Below are positions 50,911 to 61,016 of a DNA stretch of 64,000 bases, in pieces. The notes below the pieces were generated by a model. That model searched no databases, was not told where the DNA came from, and worked only from the letters and a program-made list of their open reading frames with translations. Made by a program: the position numbers and the translations under genes. The stretch's first letter is position 1, and the number at the start of each line of letters is the position of its first letter. Source of the DNA: Elizabethkingia occulta (GTDB taxonomy: Bacteria; Bacteroidota; Bacteroidia; Flavobacteriales; Weeksellaceae); the NCBI RefSeq assembly GCF_002023715.1, contig NZ_MAHX01000013.1, positions 186,001 through 250,000 of the forward strand, in the 5' to 3' direction.

Positions 50911-51111
50911 ATGAGTACAATAGAAAAATTACAGGTAGGAAGAATCTCAGCGTTAGGATTAAAAAATACAGGTGGAACATCAAGCAGTTATAAGGATTTT
51001 TTAAATAAGAAAGGAGAATACTATTCTGTAAAACAAAAGTTTCCAAATCTTGACATCGAGGATATTTCAAGGCAGGAAATTACAGGAAATATTAACATCA
51101 AATACAAATGA
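50911..51111 (+). CDS. 66-residue protein directly upstream of the toxin
   Basis: The small protein ('MSTIEKLQVGRISALGLKN ... KDFLNKKGEYYSVKQ') is not recognised. It is soluble, slightly basic and lacks a signal peptide. Its stop is one base before the toxin start (TGA-t-ATG at 51109-51115), so the two are tightly coupled. It might be a loading tag, chaperone or adaptor for the toxin; the context alone supports this. Confidence 0.6.
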   Translation: MSTIEKLQVGRISALGLKNTGGTSSSYKDFLNKKGEYYSVKQKFPNLDIEDISRQEITGNINIKYK

Positions 51112-51112
51112 T

Positions 51113-52948
51113 ATGGAAGATTTATGTGCTGTTAAACGAACAAGAATTGTTGAGACTACTTCCGATCCGGATTTAACTTCAGGCAGTTTTTATTTCCTTG
51201 TTGATGCTAATTATGAGAGAGTGAAAAATACAATTAATAATGCATTTTGGTTTCTTGAAGGAGAAGATGCTAATTTAATGTTATTTCATTTTTTTTCGGA
51301 TTATAAAGCAGAAAAAGTAGATTATGTAGTTTGTAATTTAGGAAGTGATATTTTTGATTGTATTAAATTGAATACCAATGTATTTCCGAGCGGTGGTTAT
51401 GTCATAGAATCTAATGGAAAGAAAACTATAAATCCTGAATTAAATGAGTTCAAAAAAAGTGTTACAGAACAAGTTTTAGCAATGTATAGGCAGTCTCCCA
51501 AACTTAAAAATTACAGGTTAGAGCCTTCTCAGATTAGCAAAGCTATAGACATGGAATTTTATGCCGAAGCAACTTATCAAAAAGCAGTCGACTGGATCTT
51601 TGATAAGATTGGAGTAACCACAACCTTTAAATATTTAGTTGGGATATTAAAGGACAATGCCAAATTTATTGGTAGTTATAAATTTCAGGAATACAACTAT
51701 CTGCCTTATCTATCTAATTTCGATCCGTTTATAAATGACAGCTTCCTAAAAGCTTTTGGTATTAATCCCACTGTTTTAATTGAAAGATATTCAGTTTCCA
51801 AAGAACAACTGAAATATTACAATATCAAGGAGAAAGAAGTAAATCTGGTATACGCCTTTAATGCTGAATTCTGCGGATTCTGGAATGCTCTTATTGATTC
51901 TATAGAAGGTTTATACCTTACCTTTCCAGGTATATATGAAATTTTTACGGATAGGGCTAATCTAAAAAAGTTTATTAGGATGATCATCAATATCTTTGAA
52001 AACTTCACTGAGCTCAAAGATATTATTGTACGATATGACCATGAAAATAGCCAGGGTTCTATTTATAAGTTTTGCTACCAGCAAGCTTATGAAATCACAA
52101 TGCTGCTGAGTTTATTACTACCTCTGCCTAAGGCTCCACAGGGACTAAAATCATCATCTGTTTTTGAATTCTTCAGTAATGCACTGGCTAAAATATCTGC
52201 AAAAAGCGAACTGTTATTATTAGCCTATAAGTTAGGGTTAAGAGTGGAAAGGACAGCTGATGAATGGGTTTTGATCTCCGATAAAGTAGTGCTGTTTAGG
52301 GGAACCAAAGAAAAGGTACTGAAAAGAATAGAACATATTGCAGAAGTAGCAGAGAAAAATCCTAAATTCGTGATGCGCCTTCTCTCTCCAAGAAGACTGG
52401 AAGCTTTAATAGATGTGAAAAAAGGAAAAGGAGCCTTTTTAAAAGGTTTGTCAAAAGAAAGCAAATTGATTGTACAGAAGAAATTAGAAGGAGCTAATAT
52501 TGCTGTTGCTAAATTTAAGGTCAGCTATAAAGGTCGGGTTAAAACAATAGAGTTGAAAGCTTATTCTAGTAGTAATGTAAAAGAGCTTAATAATTTAGGT
52601 TTTGCTAAACCTGCTAATTTAAGAAGTGGAGAGAAGATAACCCAGTTTGAAGAAATAACAGAAAAGGGAGTTACTCGGAGGTTTCAAGATACAGAGAGCA
52701 AAATCTTTCGGGAGTTTGAAGATTTACATTTAAAGGAAACTATGAATCAGTTAGGGGCAAAATCGGCAAATGATCTAAAAATTGAGGTCGAATTACAAAC
52801 TATTTTAGATCCATGTAATATTTGTCAGGGACAGATGACTGTTTTTGAAGCTAAGTATAATACAAAGATTGATATTTATAGTAGTGGTGCTAAAGATGGA
52901 GAAAAATTGTATGAACTTTATCCAAATTTCAAAATAAAAAAACAATAA
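51113..52948 (+). CDS. Polymorphic toxin with C-terminal deaminase-fold domain
   Basis: The 611-residue protein has about 500 unrecognised, mainly helical residues with one hydrophobic stretch near 350 ('EITMLLSLLLPLP'). The last 100 residues show the deaminase zinc pattern: 'QDTESKIFREFE' (residues about 524-535) and 'DPCNICQGQMTVFE' (about 566-579). The glutamate and the PCxxC pair are present; Asp stands where a His or Cys ligand is usual, as I recall from some toxin deaminases. Such domains deaminate nucleic-acid bases. The ATG at 51113 is chosen because an upstream TTG frame overlaps the 66-residue gene. A SUKH gene follows 7 bases later. Confidence 0.72.
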   Translation: MEDLCAVKRTRIVETTSDPDLTSGSFYFLVDANYERVKNTINNAFWFLEGEDANLMLFHFFSDYKAEKVDYVVCNLGSDIFDCIKLNTNVFPSGGYVIESNGKKTINPELNEFKKSVTEQVLAMYRQSPKLKNYRLEPSQISKAIDMEFYAEATYQKAVDWIFDKIGVTTTFKYLVGILKDNAKFIGSYKFQEYNYLPYLSNFDPFINDSFLKAFGINPTVLIERYSVSKEQLKYYNIKEKEVNLVYAFNAEFCGFWNALIDSIEGLYLTFPGIYEIFTDRANLKKFIRMIINIFENFTELKDIIVRYDHENSQGSIYKFCYQQAYEITMLLSLLLPLPKAPQGLKSSSVFEFFSNALAKISAKSELLLLAYKLGLRVERTADEWVLISDKVVLFRGTKEKVLKRIEHIAEVAEKNPKFVMRLLSPRRLEALIDVKKGKGAFLKGLSKESKLIVQKKLEGANIAVAKFKVSYKGRVKTIELKAYSSSNVKELNNLGFAKPANLRSGEKITQFEEITEKGVTRRFQDTESKIFREFEDLHLKETMNQLGAKSANDLKIEVELQTILDPCNICQGQMTVFEAKYNTKIDIYSSGAKDGEKLYELYPNFKIKKQ

Positions 52949-52955
52949 AAAGATT

Positions 52956-53411
52956 ATGGAATTAAAGTATTTGAAAAAATTAGAGAATTATTATAATAGC
53001 AATCCTAAAATATCAAAAATAGGAGTGCCTGAACAAGAAATAGAAAAGTTCGAGCAAAATTTCAATGTAAAATTTCCCAAAGCTTACAAAGAGTTTCTTT
53101 CTTTAGCAGGAAACCGAGATAATATTTTAGGTGATTGGAATAGAGGATTTGAACATTTAGATTGGATACAAGAGAATCTAAAGGAAAGTATGGAAAAAGT
53201 AAACTTGCATTTAAAACCATTTTTTGTATTTGCGGAGTATGGGAGAGATCAGGCTCTGTTTTTCTTCTTAAATGATGGTGAAAACCCACCTGTTTATGCT
53301 TATTATGAGGATAAAATTGAAGAAAACAATAAAGATGTTTTTTATATTAAGTTCAGAGATTCTTTTAGTGAGTATATTGAAAGGTGTATTGATGAAGAGT
53401 TAAAGAAATAG
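52956..53411 (+). CDS. SMI1/KNR4 (SUKH) family immunity protein
   Basis: The 151-residue protein shows the SUKH pattern: 'ISKIGVPEQEIEKFEQNFNV' then 'FPKAYKEFLSLAGNRDN', followed by a buried core 'FFVFAEYGRDQALFFFLND' and 'PPVYAYYED'. SUKH proteins are common immunity proteins against nuclease and deaminase toxins. It starts 7 bases after the toxin stop, so it is very likely the cognate immunity protein. A terminator follows. Confidence 0.85.
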   Translation: MELKYLKKLENYYNSNPKISKIGVPEQEIEKFEQNFNVKFPKAYKEFLSLAGNRDNILGDWNRGFEHLDWIQENLKESMEKVNLHLKPFFVFAEYGRDQALFFFLNDGENPPVYAYYEDKIEENNKDVFYIKFRDSFSEYIERCIDEELKK

Positions 53412-54118: not shown

Positions 54119-54379
54119 TTATTCATCTATCTTATATTTGGTAATATCAAATTCAAAATCAAATAGTTCTTTCGGAGGTATTCCAAAAGCTGATGCTATT
54201 TTGAGTAAAGTTTTGATTGTTGGGTTTCCTTTTGATTTTTCAAATTTATTATAATTACTTGCATCAATTTCGGAATTTACAGATACCTCATTCATTGTAT
54301 CATATTTTTCTTTCCTCAGCCTTTTTAGATTTTCAGAAAAAGCTTCCATATATATTCTTAAAACATCTTCACTGTCCAT
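54119..54379 (-). CDS. XRE family transcriptional regulator, second
   Basis: The 86-residue protein is a single helix-turn-helix domain: 'FSENLKRLRKEKYDTMNEVS' and 'NSEIDASNYNKFEKSKGNPT', followed by 'LLKIASAFGIPPKELFDFEF', typical of plasmid or phage-type repressors. The ATG at 54379 is preferred; an upstream ATG at 54442 overlaps a perfect 18-bp palindrome that is more likely an operator. It is divergent from the structured-RNA region. It probably represses itself and possibly the neighbouring transcript. Confidence 0.8.
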   Translation of the reverse strand: MDSEDVLRIYMEAFSENLKRLRKEKYDTMNEVSVNSEIDASNYNKFEKSKGNPTIKTLLKIASAFGIPPKELFDFEFDITKYKIDE

Positions 54380-54424
54380 TATCTTTAATTTTAGGGCAAT
54401 TTTGTGTTTTCCATAAAAATATTC

Positions 54425-54442
54425 ATGGTAATATATTACCAT
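54425..54442. promoter_or_regulatory. 18-bp perfect palindrome, candidate operator
   Basis: ATGGTAATATATTACCAT is a perfect palindrome 46 bases upstream of the XRE start and 17 bases upstream of a TATATTTG box for the opposite strand. It suits a dimeric repressor that controls both divergent transcripts. Confidence 0.65.
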
Positions 54443-54458
54443 ATTAAATTATATTGTT

Positions 54459-54466
54459 TATATTTG
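54459..54466 (+). promoter_or_regulatory. Candidate -7 box for the structured RNA / SusCD transcript
   Basis: TATATTTG matches TAnnTTTG exactly. No good -33 TTTG is present. The start would be near 54473, ahead of the structured RNA at 54539. Confidence 0.45.
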
Positions 54467-54538
54467 TAAAATAAGTTACAATAACAGTAACTTTGCGATA
54501 CTTCAACGATAATAAATAGAAGCTATTGCTTAGAATCT

Positions 54539-54774
54539 CGATTCGAAAACTGGTAATTTTTAACATGCGAGATGATAAGTAGAAATGCTCACGACCTAGG
54601 CGTGGGCTCTCTTATCTGCATGTAAGGTATACCAGTGCCCCGAATCGGATATTGTAGAGTTCCATGCCGTTTTTATTTCTATGCTGTCCCTTTATTCTAC
54701 AATTTTCTAAGACGCTCCTACAGTAAAAGTATCATTGTGGACAGTTACAATGGGTGTACAACCATTGCGGGAGC
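54539..54774 (+). ncRNA. Candidate structured RNA or 5' leader with nested helices
   Basis: The gene-free stretch 54467-55048 holds a nested stem of five helices: CGATTCG/CGAATCG (54539-54545 with 54641-54647), ACTGGTA/TACCAGT (54549-54555 with 54630-54636), ACATGC/GCATGT (54563-54568 with 54618-54623), GATAAG/CTTATC (54574-54579 with 54611-54616) and GCTCACG/CGTGGGC (54587-54593 with 54601-54607, one G-U). Two more hairpins follow: ATTGTAGA/TCTACAAT (54651-54658 with 54696-54703), and GCTCCT/GGGAGC (54714-54719 with 54769-54774, one G-U) enclosing CAATGG/CCATTG (54748-54753 with 54762-54767). Its place upstream of a TlpA-SusC-SusD operon suggests a leader element or separate RNA. I do not recognise a known class. 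Confidence 0.6.
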
Positions 54775-55048
54775 AATCCTTATTTATGAAATCTTTCTCG
54801 TCTTATCGACCAGACTTTTTGCAACTAGTAGGGGAATGTAGTTATGAGATATATTTTCCCTGCTTTTTCAAAATAAAATTACAACTACCAATGAACATTC
54901 TTGGCTTAAGGGGGAATCATGCCCATAAGTCACTTACCTTAATCAAATCTTAAAAAAGCCCTTCCTATGTTACCGTACTGTCGAATTTACTTAAGCATAT
55001 AGAAGAGCTGATAATAAATTGTTTATCATTTAAAACCAGAGTAAAAGT

Positions 55049-56341
55049 ATGAAAAATATCTTTTGCAGGGGACGTGTGCCCCTTATTTTAGCCGTAACCA
55101 TAGCTACTACAACATATTCACAAAAAAAATCTTTGAAAATAGGTGATGCTGTACCAAATTCTGTTTGGACAGCCCCAATGGAGGTTGTCAATCATTCACA
55201 GAAAACTATAAAATTATCCGAAGATAAAGATAAATTGATCTTACTTGACTTCTGGAATACATGGTGCAGTGCGTGCCTTACAGGCTTTCCTAAAATGGAA
55301 GAACTTCAAAAAAAGTTTAGTGGCAAGATAAAAATACTGGCTGTCAGCAATCAGGACAAAGCCACCCTAGAAAAATTCTTTGCCTCTAAAAACGGACAAA
55401 GGTATAAGGAGATCCTTTCAGTAGCAGGAGATAAAATACTGCATTCTCAATTTCCTCATAAAGGAGTCCCTTATATTATATGGATTAAGGACGGAAAACT
55501 CCTTAATACCACCGATGGGGCTCAGGTAAATGAAAATACCATAAATGAAGTCTTAAGGGGAGAAAGCTCCAGTCTTCAGACCGTTGTATACATGAGTAGG
55601 GAAAGGCCTTTAATGTTATCAGAAAGTTTCGATCAGGAGAAAGGGACCAGCCTTACAAATTATTCACTTCTTTCAAAAGGAAGAATAAGAAGTATAGGTT
55701 TTGGTTCAGGCTTCCATAGAAATGGAAATATTGTATATGGCCGTCAGTTTACCAATCTCTCCTTACTTGAGATCTTTACCGCTATTACCGATGAAATCTT
55801 TCAACAACGAAAAGAATCTTTTAGTAATAAAAGAATAGTTATAGAAGTGAAGAATCCTACTGCACTGGATTATATAAAGAATTCCGAAGGACGTGTGGAG
55901 GATTATAACCTTTATAATTACGAATACATCGTTCCGGTATCACTATCCGATTCACTCTATCCGATGATGCTTAAAAATCTTAGCCAATTCGCAGATTATT
56001 CCGCCAGTATAGAAAAAAGAAAGGTAAAATGTCTGATTCTTAGAAGAACCTCGCAAAAAGATAGGATCGCTACCAAAGGAGGTGAAATGAAATATAGATT
56101 TTCAACCTCAGAATCAGACTTACAAAATATTTCTATGTATGCTTTTGTCAACAGTATTAATGGAATTCCTGAAATAAAACTGCCCATTATAGATGAAACA
56201 GGATATACCGGAAATGTGGATTTAAAGTTATTGGGTATTTCAGATCCTGCTTCCTTAAGTAAGGAACTTTCAAAATATGACCTTGAGATCATTGAAGCTG
56301 ACAGGGATATAAATGTCCTTGTCATTAAGGATAAATCATAG
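55049..56341 (+). CDS. TlpA-like thioredoxin-fold protein, exported
   Basis: The 430-residue protein has an N-terminal hydrophobic signal (residues 10-24, ending 'TTYSQ'). Residues about 30-170 form a TlpA/ResA-type thioredoxin domain with the redox motif in 'LLDFWNTWCSACLTGFPKM' (CxxC) and the cis-Pro in 'HKGVPYIIWIKDGKL'. The C-terminal 240 residues are unrecognised but occur in similar Bacteroidota proteins next to SusC/SusD pairs. It starts the operon, about 275 bases downstream of the structured RNA. Confidence 0.85.
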   Translation: MKNIFCRGRVPLILAVTIATTTYSQKKSLKIGDAVPNSVWTAPMEVVNHSQKTIKLSEDKDKLILLDFWNTWCSACLTGFPKMEELQKKFSGKIKILAVSNQDKATLEKFFASKNGQRYKEILSVAGDKILHSQFPHKGVPYIIWIKDGKLLNTTDGAQVNENTINEVLRGESSSLQTVVYMSRERPLMLSESFDQEKGTSLTNYSLLSKGRIRSIGFGSGFHRNGNIVYGRQFTNLSLLEIFTAITDEIFQQRKESFSNKRIVIEVKNPTALDYIKNSEGRVEDYNLYNYEYIVPVSLSDSLYPMMLKNLSQFADYSASIEKRKVKCLILRRTSQKDRIATKGGEMKYRFSTSESDLQNISMYAFVNSINGIPEIKLPIIDETGYTGNVDLKLLGISDPASLSKELSKYDLEIIEADRDINVLVIKDKS

Positions 56342-56431: not shown

Positions 56432-59400
56432 ATGAAAAAAATACTCATGCCATTGATACTATGCAGTAGTATATCACTTATGGCTCAACATACTATTTCC
56501 GGACAGGTGCTTGATCAGCTGAGTCAGTCGCCACTAAGGAATGTTACCATAGCTCTAAAAAATAGCAGTACCGCAGTAATCACAGATAGTAATGGCTTTT
56601 TCCGGCTTCAGACAAAAGAAAACAAAATTGAGCTTATGGCTTCAGTTCTGGGGTATGAATCCAAGACTATAGAATTAAACCTTCCTCAAAGCATACCCGT
56701 AAAAATTATGCTAACAGCTAAGTTTACGGACATAGAAGCTGTTAATATAGCCACCGGATATCAGAAAATTTCAAAGGAAAGAGCCACAGGATCTTATTCT
56801 CATGCAGATAACAAACTCTTAAACCAACAGGTTGGAACCAATGTTTTGGATCGTCTCTCCAATATGATAAGTGGAGTAACGATAGACAAGGGAACCTCAG
56901 GAACTGCGCAATTGATGATTCGGGGTATCAGTACAATCAATGGTCCTAAATCACCATTGATTGTCGTGGATAATTTTCCCTATGAGGGCGACATTGGTAA
57001 TATCAATCCCAATATGGTTGAAAGTATTACGGTACTAAAAGATGCATCTGCGGCAAGTATTTGGGGAGCGAGAGCTGCCAATGGGGTTATTGTTATTACA
57101 ACAAAGAGTGGAAAATTCAGCCAGCCACAGTCACTAGAGTTCACGGCTAATACAAGTATAAGCCCAAAACCTGATTTCAATTACCTAAAGACCATTTCAT
57201 CATCTGATTTTATAGATGTTGAAACGGAACTCTTTAAAAGAGGTTACTATGATAGTGATATTAACTCTTCATCACATCCGGCTTTATCTCCCGTGGTAGA
57301 TCTACTGAATAAACAAAAGAAAGGGTTTATGAGTGAGGATGAAGTTAACCGTCAGATTGGGGCTTTAAGGAATATTGATGCCAGAGACCAGTACAGGCGG
57401 TATATGTATCTGCCCTCTGAAAAAAGGCAGTACTTTTTAAACATTGCAGGTGGAGTCCCAAAATTTTCGTGGACATCCGGAATTGGATATGATGATAACA
57501 AAGGAAATCTCGGAGAGAAATATACCAGAACCAACCTTCGCTTTCAGAATACGTGGCGTGTGATAAAACAATTAACTGTAAATACCGGAATATATTATAC
57601 AGATACCCGCACAGAAAGTGGGCGCATAAGCTATGGTGGGATTACAATGGCAAGAAACTCATCAGTGCCTTATATGCAGTTGGCAGACAGCGAAGGTAAT
57701 CCGAGTATAGTGACAAAGGGCTATGATCAGAATTATAAAGATAGTTTTGGATCAGGAAAACTTTTAGATTGGAACTATTATCCACTTTTAGACTGGCAGA
57801 ATGACCGTACAAAGACTAATGGAACGGAAGTGATGATTAATGCTTCTGTTAATTATAAAATTATAAGAGGATTTGAAGCTGAATTTAAATACCAATATCA
57901 GAGACAGAATGATATTACGGAAAACCTTCATAATTCACAAAGTTACTTTGCCAGAAATTATGTAAACAGTTTTGCACAGGTGGATACCAACGGAAATACA
58001 AATTTCATTGTTCCAAAGGGCGGGATTTTAGACAAGTCAGGAGCATTAACTATTATCAATAATGTAAGAGGACAACTAAACTATACAGGTAAATGGCATA
58101 AACACGGAGTCACAGCAATTGCAGGAGCAGAGAGCCGTGATGCGGTAAGAAGCTATGAATATAACCGTTACTATGGGTATAATGAAAATAGTATGGCTTC
58201 CGGTAATGTTGATTATACCCGGCAGTATACACTTCTTCCTACGGGTAATATGGAATTTATCCAGAGAGGGCAATCCCTTGGAAAGAGAACAACTCGTTTT
58301 GTTTCTCTGTTTGCAAATGCTGCCTATACTTTTGATAGCAAGTACACTATTTCGGGAAGCTTTCGCAGGGATGCCAGTAATTTGTTTGGGTTAAATACCA
58401 ATGACCAGTGGAATCCCTTTTGGTCAGTGGGAACGCTATGGGAAATTTCCAAAGAGAATTTTTATCACGTAGAATGGCTTCCTTATTTAAAATTGAGAGC
58501 ATCTTATGGGTTTAATGGAAATATAGATCCGGCAATGGTTGCTGTAAGTACCATCGCTTTTGATACGGATAAATCCCGTTATACCGGAACATCAGTGGCT
58601 CGTTTTGACAATTATTTTAATCCAAGGCTACGTTGGGAAACTTCCAGAATGATTAATGCAGGTGTAGATTTCTCTTCTCGAAACAGCAGAATAAGTGGCT
58701 CTGTTGAATATTTTACCAAAAAAGGAACCAACCTTTTTGGCCCCAGACAAATGGATTACACAACAGGTATAGACTATATGCTTTCCAATGTAGCAGAGAC
58801 AAGCGGACATGGAATAGACGTTGAACTAAAGACCATGAATATTGACAGAGCAGTAAAATGGAATACTATTCTCAATTTCAGTACATACAGGGATAAAGTC
58901 ACAAAATATTATCTGGCAGATCCTCTGGCAAGCCAATTCATAGGGAATGGCTCTTCTGTACCCATATCAGGAGTAGAGGGATTACCTGTCTATTCCATAT
59001 TTGCGTATAAATGGGCTGGATTAGATTCTAAAACCGGAGACCCGCAAGGGTATCTTAACGGACAGGTTAGTAAGGATTATTCTCAAATGGTAGGTGTAGG
59101 TACTTCAGTTCAGGATTTAGAGTTCTACGGCTCAGCGGTTCCTACGGTCTATGGCTCATTTGTGAACTCCTTTAGCTACAAAAACTTGAGTATGGATATA
59201 GGTATTTCTTACAAGTTTGGATACTGGTTTAGAAGAAATTCAATAAACTATACCAACTTATTTACCAGCTGGGCTGGACATAGTGATTATGCCTTCAGGT
59301 GGCAAAAAGAGGGTGATGAAGCCTTTACCAATGTTCCATCCAATAATTATCAGAGTGATGCAAACAGGGATGCGTTCTACGGAGGATCAAGCGTACTTGT

Positions 59401-59629
59401 TGAAAAAGGAGACCATATAAGATTACAATATATCAACCTCACATATACTTTTGATAAGGCTCTTTTTGGGTCCCCTGTTTTTGAAAGTCTGAGTTTATTT
59501 GTGAACCTAAGCAATCTGGGCATTTTATGGAGGGCTAATAAAAGTGGAATTGACCCGGATTATAACCTTGGAATTAGCGGATTAAGACCTCCGGGTGTTT
59601 ATACAATAGGGCTTCGTGCCAAATTCTAA
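56432..59629 (+). CDS. SusC/RagA family TonB-linked outer-membrane transporter
   Basis: The 1065-residue protein has a signal peptide ending 'SLMAQ' (residue 18) and a carboxypeptidase-D-regulatory-like domain (about 20-100; 'TISGQVLDQLSQSPLRNVTI'). The plug contains 'GVTIDKGTSGTAQLMIRGIS', 'SPLIVVDNFPYEGDIGNINP' and 'ITVLKDASAASIWGARAANG', a SusC/RagA signature. The barrel ends 'GVYTIGLRAKF' with terminal Phe. It transports a large substrate (glycan, peptide or metal complex) with its SusD partner. The substrate is not evident, and no glycosidase is nearby. Confidence 0.92.
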   Translation: MKKILMPLILCSSISLMAQHTISGQVLDQLSQSPLRNVTIALKNSSTAVITDSNGFFRLQTKENKIELMASVLGYESKTIELNLPQSIPVKIMLTAKFTDIEAVNIATGYQKISKERATGSYSHADNKLLNQQVGTNVLDRLSNMISGVTIDKGTSGTAQLMIRGISTINGPKSPLIVVDNFPYEGDIGNINPNMVESITVLKDASAASIWGARAANGVIVITTKSGKFSQPQSLEFTANTSISPKPDFNYLKTISSSDFIDVETELFKRGYYDSDINSSSHPALSPVVDLLNKQKKGFMSEDEVNRQIGALRNIDARDQYRRYMYLPSEKRQYFLNIAGGVPKFSWTSGIGYDDNKGNLGEKYTRTNLRFQNTWRVIKQLTVNTGIYYTDTRTESGRISYGGITMARNSSVPYMQLADSEGNPSIVTKGYDQNYKDSFGSGKLLDWNYYPLLDWQNDRTKTNGTEVMINASVNYKIIRGFEAEFKYQYQRQNDITENLHNSQSYFARNYVNSFAQVDTNGNTNFIVPKGGILDKSGALTIINNVRGQLNYTGKWHKHGVTAIAGAESRDAVRSYEYNRYYGYNENSMASGNVDYTRQYTLLPTGNMEFIQRGQSLGKRTTRFVSLFANAAYTFDSKYTISGSFRRDASNLFGLNTNDQWNPFWSVGTLWEISKENFYHVEWLPYLKLRASYGFNGNIDPAMVAVSTIAFDTDKSRYTGTSVARFDNYFNPRLRWETSRMINAGVDFSSRNSRISGSVEYFTKKGTNLFGPRQMDYTTGIDYMLSNVAETSGHGIDVELKTMNIDRAVKWNTILNFSTYRDKVTKYYLADPLASQFIGNGSSVPISGVEGLPVYSIFAYKWAGLDSKTGDPQGYLNGQVSKDYSQMVGVGTSVQDLEFYGSAVPTVYGSFVNSFSYKNLSMDIGISYKFGYWFRRNSINYTNLFTSWAGHSDYAFRWQKEGDEAFTNVPSNNYQSDANRDAFYGGSSVLVEKGDHIRLQYINLTYTFDKALFGSPVFESLSLFVNLSNLGILWRANKSGIDPDYNLGISGLRPPGVYTIGLRAKF

Positions 59630-59660
59630 CCTGATTATTTCAATACTATATTATTATGTT

Positions 59661-61016
59661 ATGAAAGAAACATTGAAAAAAATATTTAGATTTTTATCTG
59701 TATTAGTAGTGTTAACGAGTTGTAGCAGATTTTTAGATGAAAAGTCTGACTCGCAGTTGGCTACTCCCCAAACCCTTGAAGATAATCAGGCATTATTGGA
59801 TAGAATAACAGATGTACTGGGAGATTTTGCTTCCAGCGGGATGACCTCCTCTGATGAATTTTATTTATCAGATAGCGATTATAATTCCTTGGAATATAAT
59901 GAAGATAAAAGATTGTATACGTGGCAGCCCGATTATGTATCCACCAATCAAGGGGTAGGAAATGATTGGTATTCTTGTTACAAGGCTATTTATGTAAGTA
60001 ATGCAGTGCTTGACAATCTGGAAACCTATCATATTTCAGGAGCTGAGAATGTAAAAGGTCAGGCATTAGCACTGCGTGCCATACGCTATCTTGATGCTGC
60101 ACAGATATGGTGTGTGGCTTATAATGAGGCAACAGGAGGACAGGATTTAGGTTTACCACTCCGGTTAGATTCTGATATGAACCAGACTTCGGTAAGGTCT
60201 TCGGTTAAACAGACTTATGATCAGATTCTAAGGGATTTAACTCAGGCTGTGGAATTACTGCCTGTAAAGCAGGTCGCTGCCAGCAGACCTTCGAAGATTA
60301 CAGCACTTGGGTATTTGGCAAGAACTTATTTATATATAGGAGATTATGAAAAAGCTTTACAATATGCACTATGGGCATTAGAACTGCAAAATACTTTAAT
60401 GGATTTTAATACGCTGAAATCATCAGATACTTATCCTATTAAAGATATGAACGCTGAAGTTTTATTAAGAACTACGATGCGTATTTCAGGACCTGTGCGT
60501 TTTGCGGTAGCTAAGGTTCCATTAAATTTATTTCAATTATATCATGAGAATGATCTTAGAAAACTGATTTACTTTAGGGTAAACCCTAATGGGGATATTA
60601 TATTTAAAGGAAACTATACAGGAGGTTCTTCGGGGAAAATGACCAGTGTTGCAGTGGATGAGCTATATTTGATCGCAGCAGAATCTTATGCTCAGACTGG
60701 TGATGTTACCAAATCTATGAAAATGCTTAATGATCTTCTAATCACCAGATGGAAAGCTGAAACATTTATACCTTTTATAGCTAATTCCAAAGAAGAGGCA
60801 TTACAGCTTATTAGGAAAGAAAGACAAAAGGAGCTATTGTTCAGAGGAATTCGCTGGCCGGATTTGAAAAGATACAACCGTGATGGCGCTAATATTACCT
60901 TAACAAGAACTATTGAAAATAAATTATATTCTTTGCCTCCTAATGATCCTCGCTATGCTATAGCTATTCCAGAGGATATTATTAAATTGTCGGGGATGCC
61001 ACAGAATCGTAGATAG
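59661..61016 (+). CDS. SusD/RagB family outer-membrane lipoprotein
   Basis: The 451-residue lipoprotein has a signal peptide with Cys21 in 'VVLTSC' and the usual SusD start 'SRFLDEKSDSQLATPQTLE'. The TPR-like region includes 'QALALRAIRYLDAAQIWCVA' and 'ALGYLARTYLYIGDYEKALQ', and the C-terminal 'IRKERQKELLFRGIRWPDLK' motif is typical. The ATG at 59661 is preferred since an in-frame upstream ATG overlaps the susC tail and breaks the signal. It acts as the lid of the SusC pore. The terminator follows. Confidence 0.92.
   Translation: MKETLKKIFRFLSVLVVLTSCSRFLDEKSDSQLATPQTLEDNQALLDRITDVLGDFASSGMTSSDEFYLSDSDYNSLEYNEDKRLYTWQPDYVSTNQGVGNDWYSCYKAIYVSNAVLDNLETYHISGAENVKGQALALRAIRYLDAAQIWCVAYNEATGGQDLGLPLRLDSDMNQTSVRSSVKQTYDQILRDLTQAVELLPVKQVAASRPSKITALGYLARTYLYIGDYEKALQYALWALELQNTLMDFNTLKSSDTYPIKDMNAEVLLRTTMRISGPVRFAVAKVPLNLFQLYHENDLRKLIYFRVNPNGDIIFKGNYTGGSSGKMTSVAVDELYLIAAESYAQTGDVTKSMKMLNDLLITRWKAETFIPFIANSKEEALQLIRKERQKELLFRGIRWPDLKRYNRDGANITLTRTIENKLYSLPPNDPRYAIAIPEDIIKLSGMPQNRR

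Follow-up and report, generated by a model that had tools for sequence, protein, structure and literature searches.

According to a 2025 preprint, dCas12f-sigmaE systems are said to carry out RNA-guided transcription with SusCD operons as targets, and transcription in these systems reportedly starts at a fixed distance downstream of the target. For Flavobacterium psychrophilum, one study reports 64 structured 5′ regions, some of them without Rfam hits (PMC9723704). Here we describe an RNA encoded in a 64,000-nt stretch of Elizabethkingia occulta DNA (contig NZ_MAHX01000013.1, positions 186,001 to 250,000; hereafter the window), in which a reading made from the letters alone (the sequence-only reading) had claimed a structured RNA ahead of a TlpA-SusC-SusD operon. 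We argue that this RNA is probably a cis-acting transcription attenuator, i.e., a riboswitch-like leader RNA. Its features are collected in Table 1.

Table 1. Features of the leader RNA and its surroundings (positions in the window)
Feature	Position	Strand	Basis or remark
Divergent Cro/C1-type HTH gene	54119-54442	-	HTH_3, E 4.6e-10; likely start M22, about 54379
Perfect palindrome ATGGTAATATATTACCAT, candidate operator of the HTH protein	54425-54442	.	arm of 9
TATATTTG box	54459-54466	+	conserved among 27 aligned close-clade loci, with changes in a few
TAACTTTG, predicted -7 element (TAnnTTTG)	54488-54495	+	predicted start near 54502
Leader RNA	54502-54674 (core model 54529-54674)	+	covariance models R1 and R2; predicted 5′ end
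Helix Pk, 5′ strand	54529-54540 (partner 54568-54579; core TCTCG::CGAGA)	+	matched versus permuted arms
State A, nested helices P1-P5	54539-54647	+	covariation
P1	54539-45/54641-47	+	nested helix, state A
P2	54549-55/54630-36	+	nested helix, state A
P3	54563-69/54617-23	+	nested helix, state A; includes a G-U
P4	54574-79/54611-16, plus three more pairs	+	nested helix, state A
P5	54588-94/54601-07	+	nested helix, state A
State B, terminator stem Bt	54599-54668 (54599-54616 with 54648-54668)	+	RNAalifold consensus; arm tests
Switching strand GGCGTGGGCTC	54599-54609	+	3′ side of P5 and 5′ side of Bt; equals the guide start of relatives' dCas12f gRNAs
T run after Bt, intrinsic-terminator tail	54670-54674 (TTTTT)	+	T counts in copies
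Hairpin	54651-54703	+	centroid fold of 54539-54774
Second leader hairpin, inner stem ACAATGG..CCATTG	54714-54774	+	centroid fold; present in SusC-type loci
Terminator-like hairpin (GTAGGGGAA..TTTTCCCTGC, then TTTTT) ahead of the operon	54828-54868	+	sequence reading; paired in predicted fold
TlpA-like thioredoxin gene, first of the operon	55049-56341	+	AhpC-TSA/thioredoxin Pfam matches
SusC-like receptor gene	56432-59629	+	1065 aa ORF; named by sequence reading
SusD-like lipoprotein gene	59616-61016	+	466 aa ORF; named likewise

Fold and covariation of the leader RNA

The region 54539-54774 folded with a minimum free energy of -74 kcal/mol, as compared with a mean of -54.8 (sd 4.56) for shuffled sequences (z -4.2), and none of 200 shuffles equalled it. 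The observation of the sequence-only reading is confirmed: all five of its nested helices were located (P1-P5, together state A), and the two further hairpins that it had described, one of them with an inner stem, were predicted by the centroid fold. In the inner stem of the second hairpin changes on both sides were seen by eye (AATGG/CCATT, AATGA/TCATT, AATAG/CTATT and AGTGG/CCACT). In 34 aligned copies, 138 cells of P1-P5 were altered on both sides; shuffling gave 46 (sd 5.6) and sliding the partners no more than 37. Further pair types showed no excess over shuffles in these copies (47 versus 47.2). Loci L038 and L054 were left out of alignment A1, and L038, L054, L056, L059, L062 and L065 out of alignment A2.

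The pairing was also assessed without an alignment, by comparing the energy of arm pairing within a copy with that of arms mixed between copies (arm test). The permutation z values ignore relatedness, which the null arm pairs share. Near-identical or short copies were removed from each of three sets (6 of 76, 2 of 61 and 25 of 79). In the first set (70 non-redundant copies of 76), z was -29.9 for P1, -17.3 for P2, -26.1 for P3, -9.1 for P4 and -8.9 for P5, and three unrelated null arm pairs gave 0.5 to 0.8. The search pattern of the third set (A5) fixed P2 and P5, so that both are uninformative there and P4 nearly so. The covariation in relatives on which the sequence-only reading had made its claim depend was strong, in P1-P5 and also in the two pairings described below. 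Hence, the structure of the leader RNA is real, and its fold is conserved with covariation.

A predicted terminator stem that competes with the fold

Two pairings, helix Pk and the terminator stem Bt, are absent from the earlier description of the region. The core of Pk pairs 54536-40 with 54568-72, and in the window two of its pairs overlap with P1 and two with P3. In the arm test, z for Pk was -15.6 in the first set (70 of 76), -13.6 in the second (59 of 61) and -8.5 in the third (54 of 79, pattern-selected). Because z was still -7.2 and -8.1 when Pk was limited to strands outside P1, P3 and P4, a pseudoknot is likely, though short in the window, where Pk would be either a shortened pseudoknot or a partly alternative pairing. 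For Bt, which includes an inner pairing of 54599-54605 with 54662-54668, the corresponding values were -19.2, -15.0 and -6.3 in the same sets. Null arm pairs gave 0.5 to 2.0 in the second set, which was found with model R2, in which neither Pk nor Bt is encoded as paired, and -0.3 to 0.7 in the third.

Bt takes the 3′ strand of P5 and P4, and therefore Bt and state A are mutually exclusive. This exclusive terminator stem is followed by a T run: of the final 8 nt, at least five were T in 83% of the 59 second-set copies and in 67% of the 54 third-set copies. The remaining 17% and 33% had fewer than five, which counts against an attenuator. When nested folds were compared in the window, state A reached -52.7 and state B -44.8 kcal/mol; A is thermodynamically favoured there, so that state B would need kinetics or a factor. 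That the second structure given by RNAalifold is a wrong fold was rejected, since by the arm tests one part of it, Pk, crosses P1 and another, Bt, is a true competitor.

Distribution of the leader RNA

When 99 genomes were searched by blastn, that of the window among them, 14 of the 98 others gave matches with E below 1e-28, and five of these 14 had more than one. Covariance model R1, built on the P1-P5 pairs, found copies in 43 of the 99 genomes, the own one included, with up to 11 per genome; with model R2, four copies were obtained from the genome of the window, and 66 of 395 genomes in an even sample of the phylum had at least one. The sets taken from these searches, A3 (R1, 99 genomes) and A4 (R2, 395 genomes), each comprise part of the matches, and L056, L059, L061, L062 and L063 were omitted from A3. 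A pattern scan of named genomes yielded at least 120 stretches; R2 gave 79 hits in the 80 that were listed, among which were stretches of Flavobacterium, Chryseobacterium, Maribacter, Niabella and Dysgonomonas. Against Rfam 15 the window matched tRNAs only, 54400-55050 gave no match even at E 5, and in 19 loci with divergent copies no match to the leader was obtained at the gathering cut-offs. In blastn searches with the window RNA, phages gave nothing and plasmids a single match, in Rhizosphaericola mali.

Genes downstream of the leader RNA

No copy in any of the three sets lay inside an ORF of at least 90 aa. The nearest downstream ORF of this size was on the same strand in 75/76, 57/61 and 66/69 copies, so that the RNA occupies a position 5′ of a same-strand gene, while the nearest upstream ORF showed no bias (same-strand in 36/76, 22/58 and 25/72 copies). 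The sequence-only reading had offered a leader of the SusCD operon or an independent RNA; this pair of options held up, and the leader is favoured because the downstream ORFs are same-strand while the upstream ORFs show no strand bias. The distance from the RNA to the start of the gene is about 200-450 nt in SusC-type loci. The downstream genes, named mostly from sequence reading, comprise the TlpA-SusC-SusD operon of the window, SusC-like receptors, ECF sigma genes, small exported or lipoprotein-like ORFs, genes of unknown function and, in conjugative-element-like loci, a receiver-like protein. No regulon theme was apparent in 73 downstream proteins (at most their first 250 residues), which matched 54 Pfam families, none in more than three proteins; these proteins were hand-picked from the 129 of sets A3 and A4 with most SusC-like repeats omitted, so that SusC is under-counted. 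The downstream genes are too diverse to suggest a shared ligand.

This diversity and the presence of up to 11 copies per genome would fit a general regulator, and the conserved segments GAAAACTGG and GGTATACCAGTACC of the leader RNA alignment could serve as the site of an antiterminator protein in place of a small-molecule riboswitch. Such a site would follow the same switch logic and overlaps with the attenuator, from which it differs in the signal only. Large pseudoknot-type folds are more typical of aptamers, and the fold of the leader is in this respect more aptamer-like, so that we consider a protein-binding site rather unlikely.

Several further observations were made on the neighbouring genes. 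Proteins of ~100-200 aa that look alike by eye lie downstream of the RNA in L032, L037, L192, L257, L281 and L305; one of them was scanned against Pfam and had no match above the cut-off. Close relatives of the RNA precede a receiver-like or small unknown protein in L053, L055, L057, L058 and L067, which carry what we take to be TraN/TraO-like genes. The upstream flanks of L034, L041, L050 and L051 hold AAA-like, methylase-like or helicase-like genes and read as defence-island-like. In the window, the gene of a 632-aa protein and a SUKH-family gene behind it, within 51050-53411, are reminiscent of a polymorphic toxin/immunity pair; the 632-aa protein matches a deaminase toxin weakly, under the Pfam cut-off. 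Finally, 54740-54894 of the window is 92% identical to 1163-1318 of contig C2 of the same genome, both ahead of TlpA-SusC-SusD operons, and this block includes the terminator-like hairpin (GGGGAA..TTTTCCC); an exchange of cassettes behind different leaders is possible.

Promoter boxes and divergent HTH genes

The motif TAnnTTTG was present 30-50 nt ahead of the model start in 44/76, 25/61 and 75/79 copies of the three sets, versus 1.2-1.8 in shuffles, and its position peaked 38-44 nt before the model start in all three; it was missing at the expected place in 36/61 copies of the second set. The sequence-only reading had named the TATATTTG box, which is indeed present, and had missed the second box, TAACTTTG. 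The promoter is likely to be the box at 54488, and not only the one named earlier; the TATATTTG box may itself be a -7 box or may supply the -33 TTTG of the promoter after it.

Under a lenient rule (any open frame of at least 55 aa), all 27 close loci had a divergent upstream ORF, 73-158 aa long, and HTH_3 matched 17 of the 27 (E 0.01). M22 is the sole invariant column among these ORFs, and their proteins are 11-34% identical to the HTH protein of the window, with one exception at 69%. A palindrome arm of 9, as in the window, was reached by 3.7% of shuffles. Many of the 27 loci have an inverted repeat of their own between the HTH gene and the TATATTTG box, with a sequence that differs among loci: the mean arm was 7.8 versus 4.9 when shuffled (none of 300 shuffled sets had a mean above 5.63), and arms of at least 7 occurred in 12 loci versus 2.5 expected. 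These repeats suggest that interchangeable repressor-operator pairs, whose binding is predicted from the repeats, precede a constant RNA.

A different structured RNA, RNA X (L066:340-700, on contig C2 of the same genome; 470-690 folds with z -4.7), is placed alike: a divergent HTH gene and a TATATTTG box precede it, and a paralogous TlpA-SusC-SusD operon follows. Apart from this genome, one of the 99 (G048) had matches at E 1e-6, in three copies, one of them upstream of its sigma-dCas12f genes. The copies at two of the three G048 places carry GGGCGGTTTTC, which is contained in a guide of G051, and the copy of the window's genome is one base off; a search of G051 for RNA X gave no match. RNA X may be an unrelated second structured leader that is read by other guides of such systems.

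dCas12f-sigma systems and their guides

The Cas12f of G001 matches PDB 9n9c chain A ('Nuclease-deactivated Cas12f') over all its 364 residues (E 1.1e-158). Proteins like it, presumably nuclease-dead by their likeness to 9n9c, occur at 10 places in 9 of the 99 genomes, and an ECF sigma (sigma-70-family) gene adjoins Cas12f at each place. The leader RNA lies ahead of the sigma and dCas12f genes in 7 of these 10 loci; it was not found in the stretches examined of the other three (L078, L079 and L080), one of which has RNA X instead. At the level of genomes, the leader is present in 9/9 with dCas12f versus 34/90 of the others (Fisher p 3e-4). Directly downstream of dCas12f there is a conserved RNA that ends in ACAAC plus a guide, found in exactly the same nine genomes; in G051 (L079), in L279 and also in L324, two or three such gRNA units stand in tandem.

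Twenty guides were collected from 14 of the 17 genomes or loci examined. Sixteen begin with GGCGTGGG, GCGTGGG or GGCATGGG, which equals the switching strand of the leader, and four differ. Among 19 comparable guides, 12 are identical from their first base onward, for 8-14 nt, to a leader copy from their own genome or locus and seven are not, whereas 62 of 3,800 shuffled guides reached a run of at least 8; 1 to 5 leader copies per genome or locus, not always all, entered this comparison. G036 has two guides, and when four of its leader copies were compared, one matched L033 best (14 nt) and the other L046 (11 nt). Counter-cases were a 3-nt run for G001 on its one compared copy, 6 nt for G004, and one L279 guide that was mismatched after 3 nt; G051 and L279 further contribute two guides apiece whose cores differ and fit none of the leader copies compared, and the T-rich 3′ ends of guides partly reflect their own terminators. 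The guide matches suggest RNA-guided transcription past the attenuator. The window's own genome gave no match to dCas12f or its gRNA, and the same query did find a 60%-identical protein in G048. As far as searched, then, and a very distant homologue apart, this genome lacks such a system, so that a bypass cannot apply in the window and the leader should work without dCas12f.

The guides also bear on whether the RNA acts in trans, as an independent small RNA of about 170 nt with its own promoter and terminator, whose GCUCACG arm, for example, would pair with the guide of a dCas12f gRNA. The unit is complete, with a promoter box, a structured body and a terminator with a T run; state B would yield a short RNA that ends at this run, GCTCACG, on the 5′ side of P5, has a sequence complementary to the CGTGGGC core of the guides, and the distance to the gene in SusC-type loci leaves room for a separate transcript. 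This explanation is nevertheless improbable, given the strand bias of the downstream ORFs against unbiased upstream ones, the lack of such a dCas12f in 34 of the 43 genomes with the RNA, and a competing fold that a plain terminator does not need.

That the leader is itself the guide RNA of dCas12f-sigmaE might be read from its place upstream of the sigma and dCas12f genes and its presence in all nine dCas12f genomes, but it is also found in 34 of 90 genomes without dCas12f, it has no variable guide-like segment at its 3′ end, and the scaffold-plus-guide role fits the separate RNA downstream of dCas12f; this candidate was dropped as very improbable. The surroundings of some copies, judged by sequence reading to be conjugative-element-like or otherwise mobile, would suit a DNA-level element (a cruciform or a recombination site) with no RNA function, but the G-U pairs, the helix that crosses P1 and the single orientation and constant promoter-box spacing of a terminator with its T run make this hardly credible.

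Proposed mechanism

For the attenuator, which we prefer, TAACTTTG would direct a transcription start near 54502, a step that the divergent Cro/C1-type repressor, bound at the palindrome, probably gates in the close clade. The emerging RNA can complete state A, i.e., P1-P5 with Pk as the likely pseudoknot. State A would hold the strand GGCGUGGGC in P5 and P4, so that the polymerase proceeds into TlpA-SusC-SusD. Should A fail to persist, this strand would instead pair with the downstream CCAUGCC arm (state B), and the transcript would end at the U run 54670-74.

In relatives with dCas12f and an ECF sigma factor, the complex should bind DNA at sites like 54599-54609, as most guides equal this strand. 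A start downstream of the site would leave the 5′ half of the terminator out of the mRNAs, which would hence escape it, and new 5′ ends would be expected downstream of GGCGTGGGC in the SusCD leader. We hold this bypass to be fairly plausible, with a somewhat lower confidence than the attenuator itself. Of this scheme, the structure with its two alternative states, the placement before genes, the promoter box and the guide matches were observed; termination, the direction in which the switch works, the action of the repressor and the bypass are predicted.

A broader proposal, which we make tentatively and with more doubt than confidence, is that the RNA forms a new and widespread Bacteroidota class of attenuators that places scattered surface and accessory genes under a common signal, and that domesticated Cas12f-sigma systems, with guides equal to the switching strand, address much of this regulon, often including their own operon, and start transcription past the terminator. 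If the attenuator is correct, a large family of regulatory RNAs in Bacteroidota is absent from Rfam 15, and the signal of the switch could be addressed through many natural copies, four of them in the window's own genome. Many Cas12f-sigma guides would then aim at the shared strand of the attenuator, and a single guide would compactly address many promoters.

Comparison with known systems

The Flavo-1 RNA (RF01705) is, like the leader, a structured RNA of Bacteroidetes; unlike it, the leader region gave no Rfam match at the E 5 cut-off, and the Flavo-1 hit in L141 falls outside the leader. Some of the structured 5′ regions of F. psychrophilum likewise lack Rfam hits, and the genes named in section 19 of that study (pheA, hisG, ftsY, acsA, alaS and rimP) differ from those seen downstream of our leader (PMC9723704). 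With dCas12f-sigmaE (PDB 9n9c) the loci of the relatives share a Cas12f that matches 9n9c, in G001, and an adjoining sigma-70-family gene, whereas the leader differs from the gRNA of that system in being the apparent target region and in its far wider spread (43 versus 9 of 99 genomes). As compared with transcription-attenuating riboswitches, the downstream genes of the leader share no pathway, it has no Rfam match and its contexts suggest no ligand, but it resembles them in its complex upstream fold, in the switching strand shared by both states, in the mutually exclusive intrinsic terminator and in its 5′ position.
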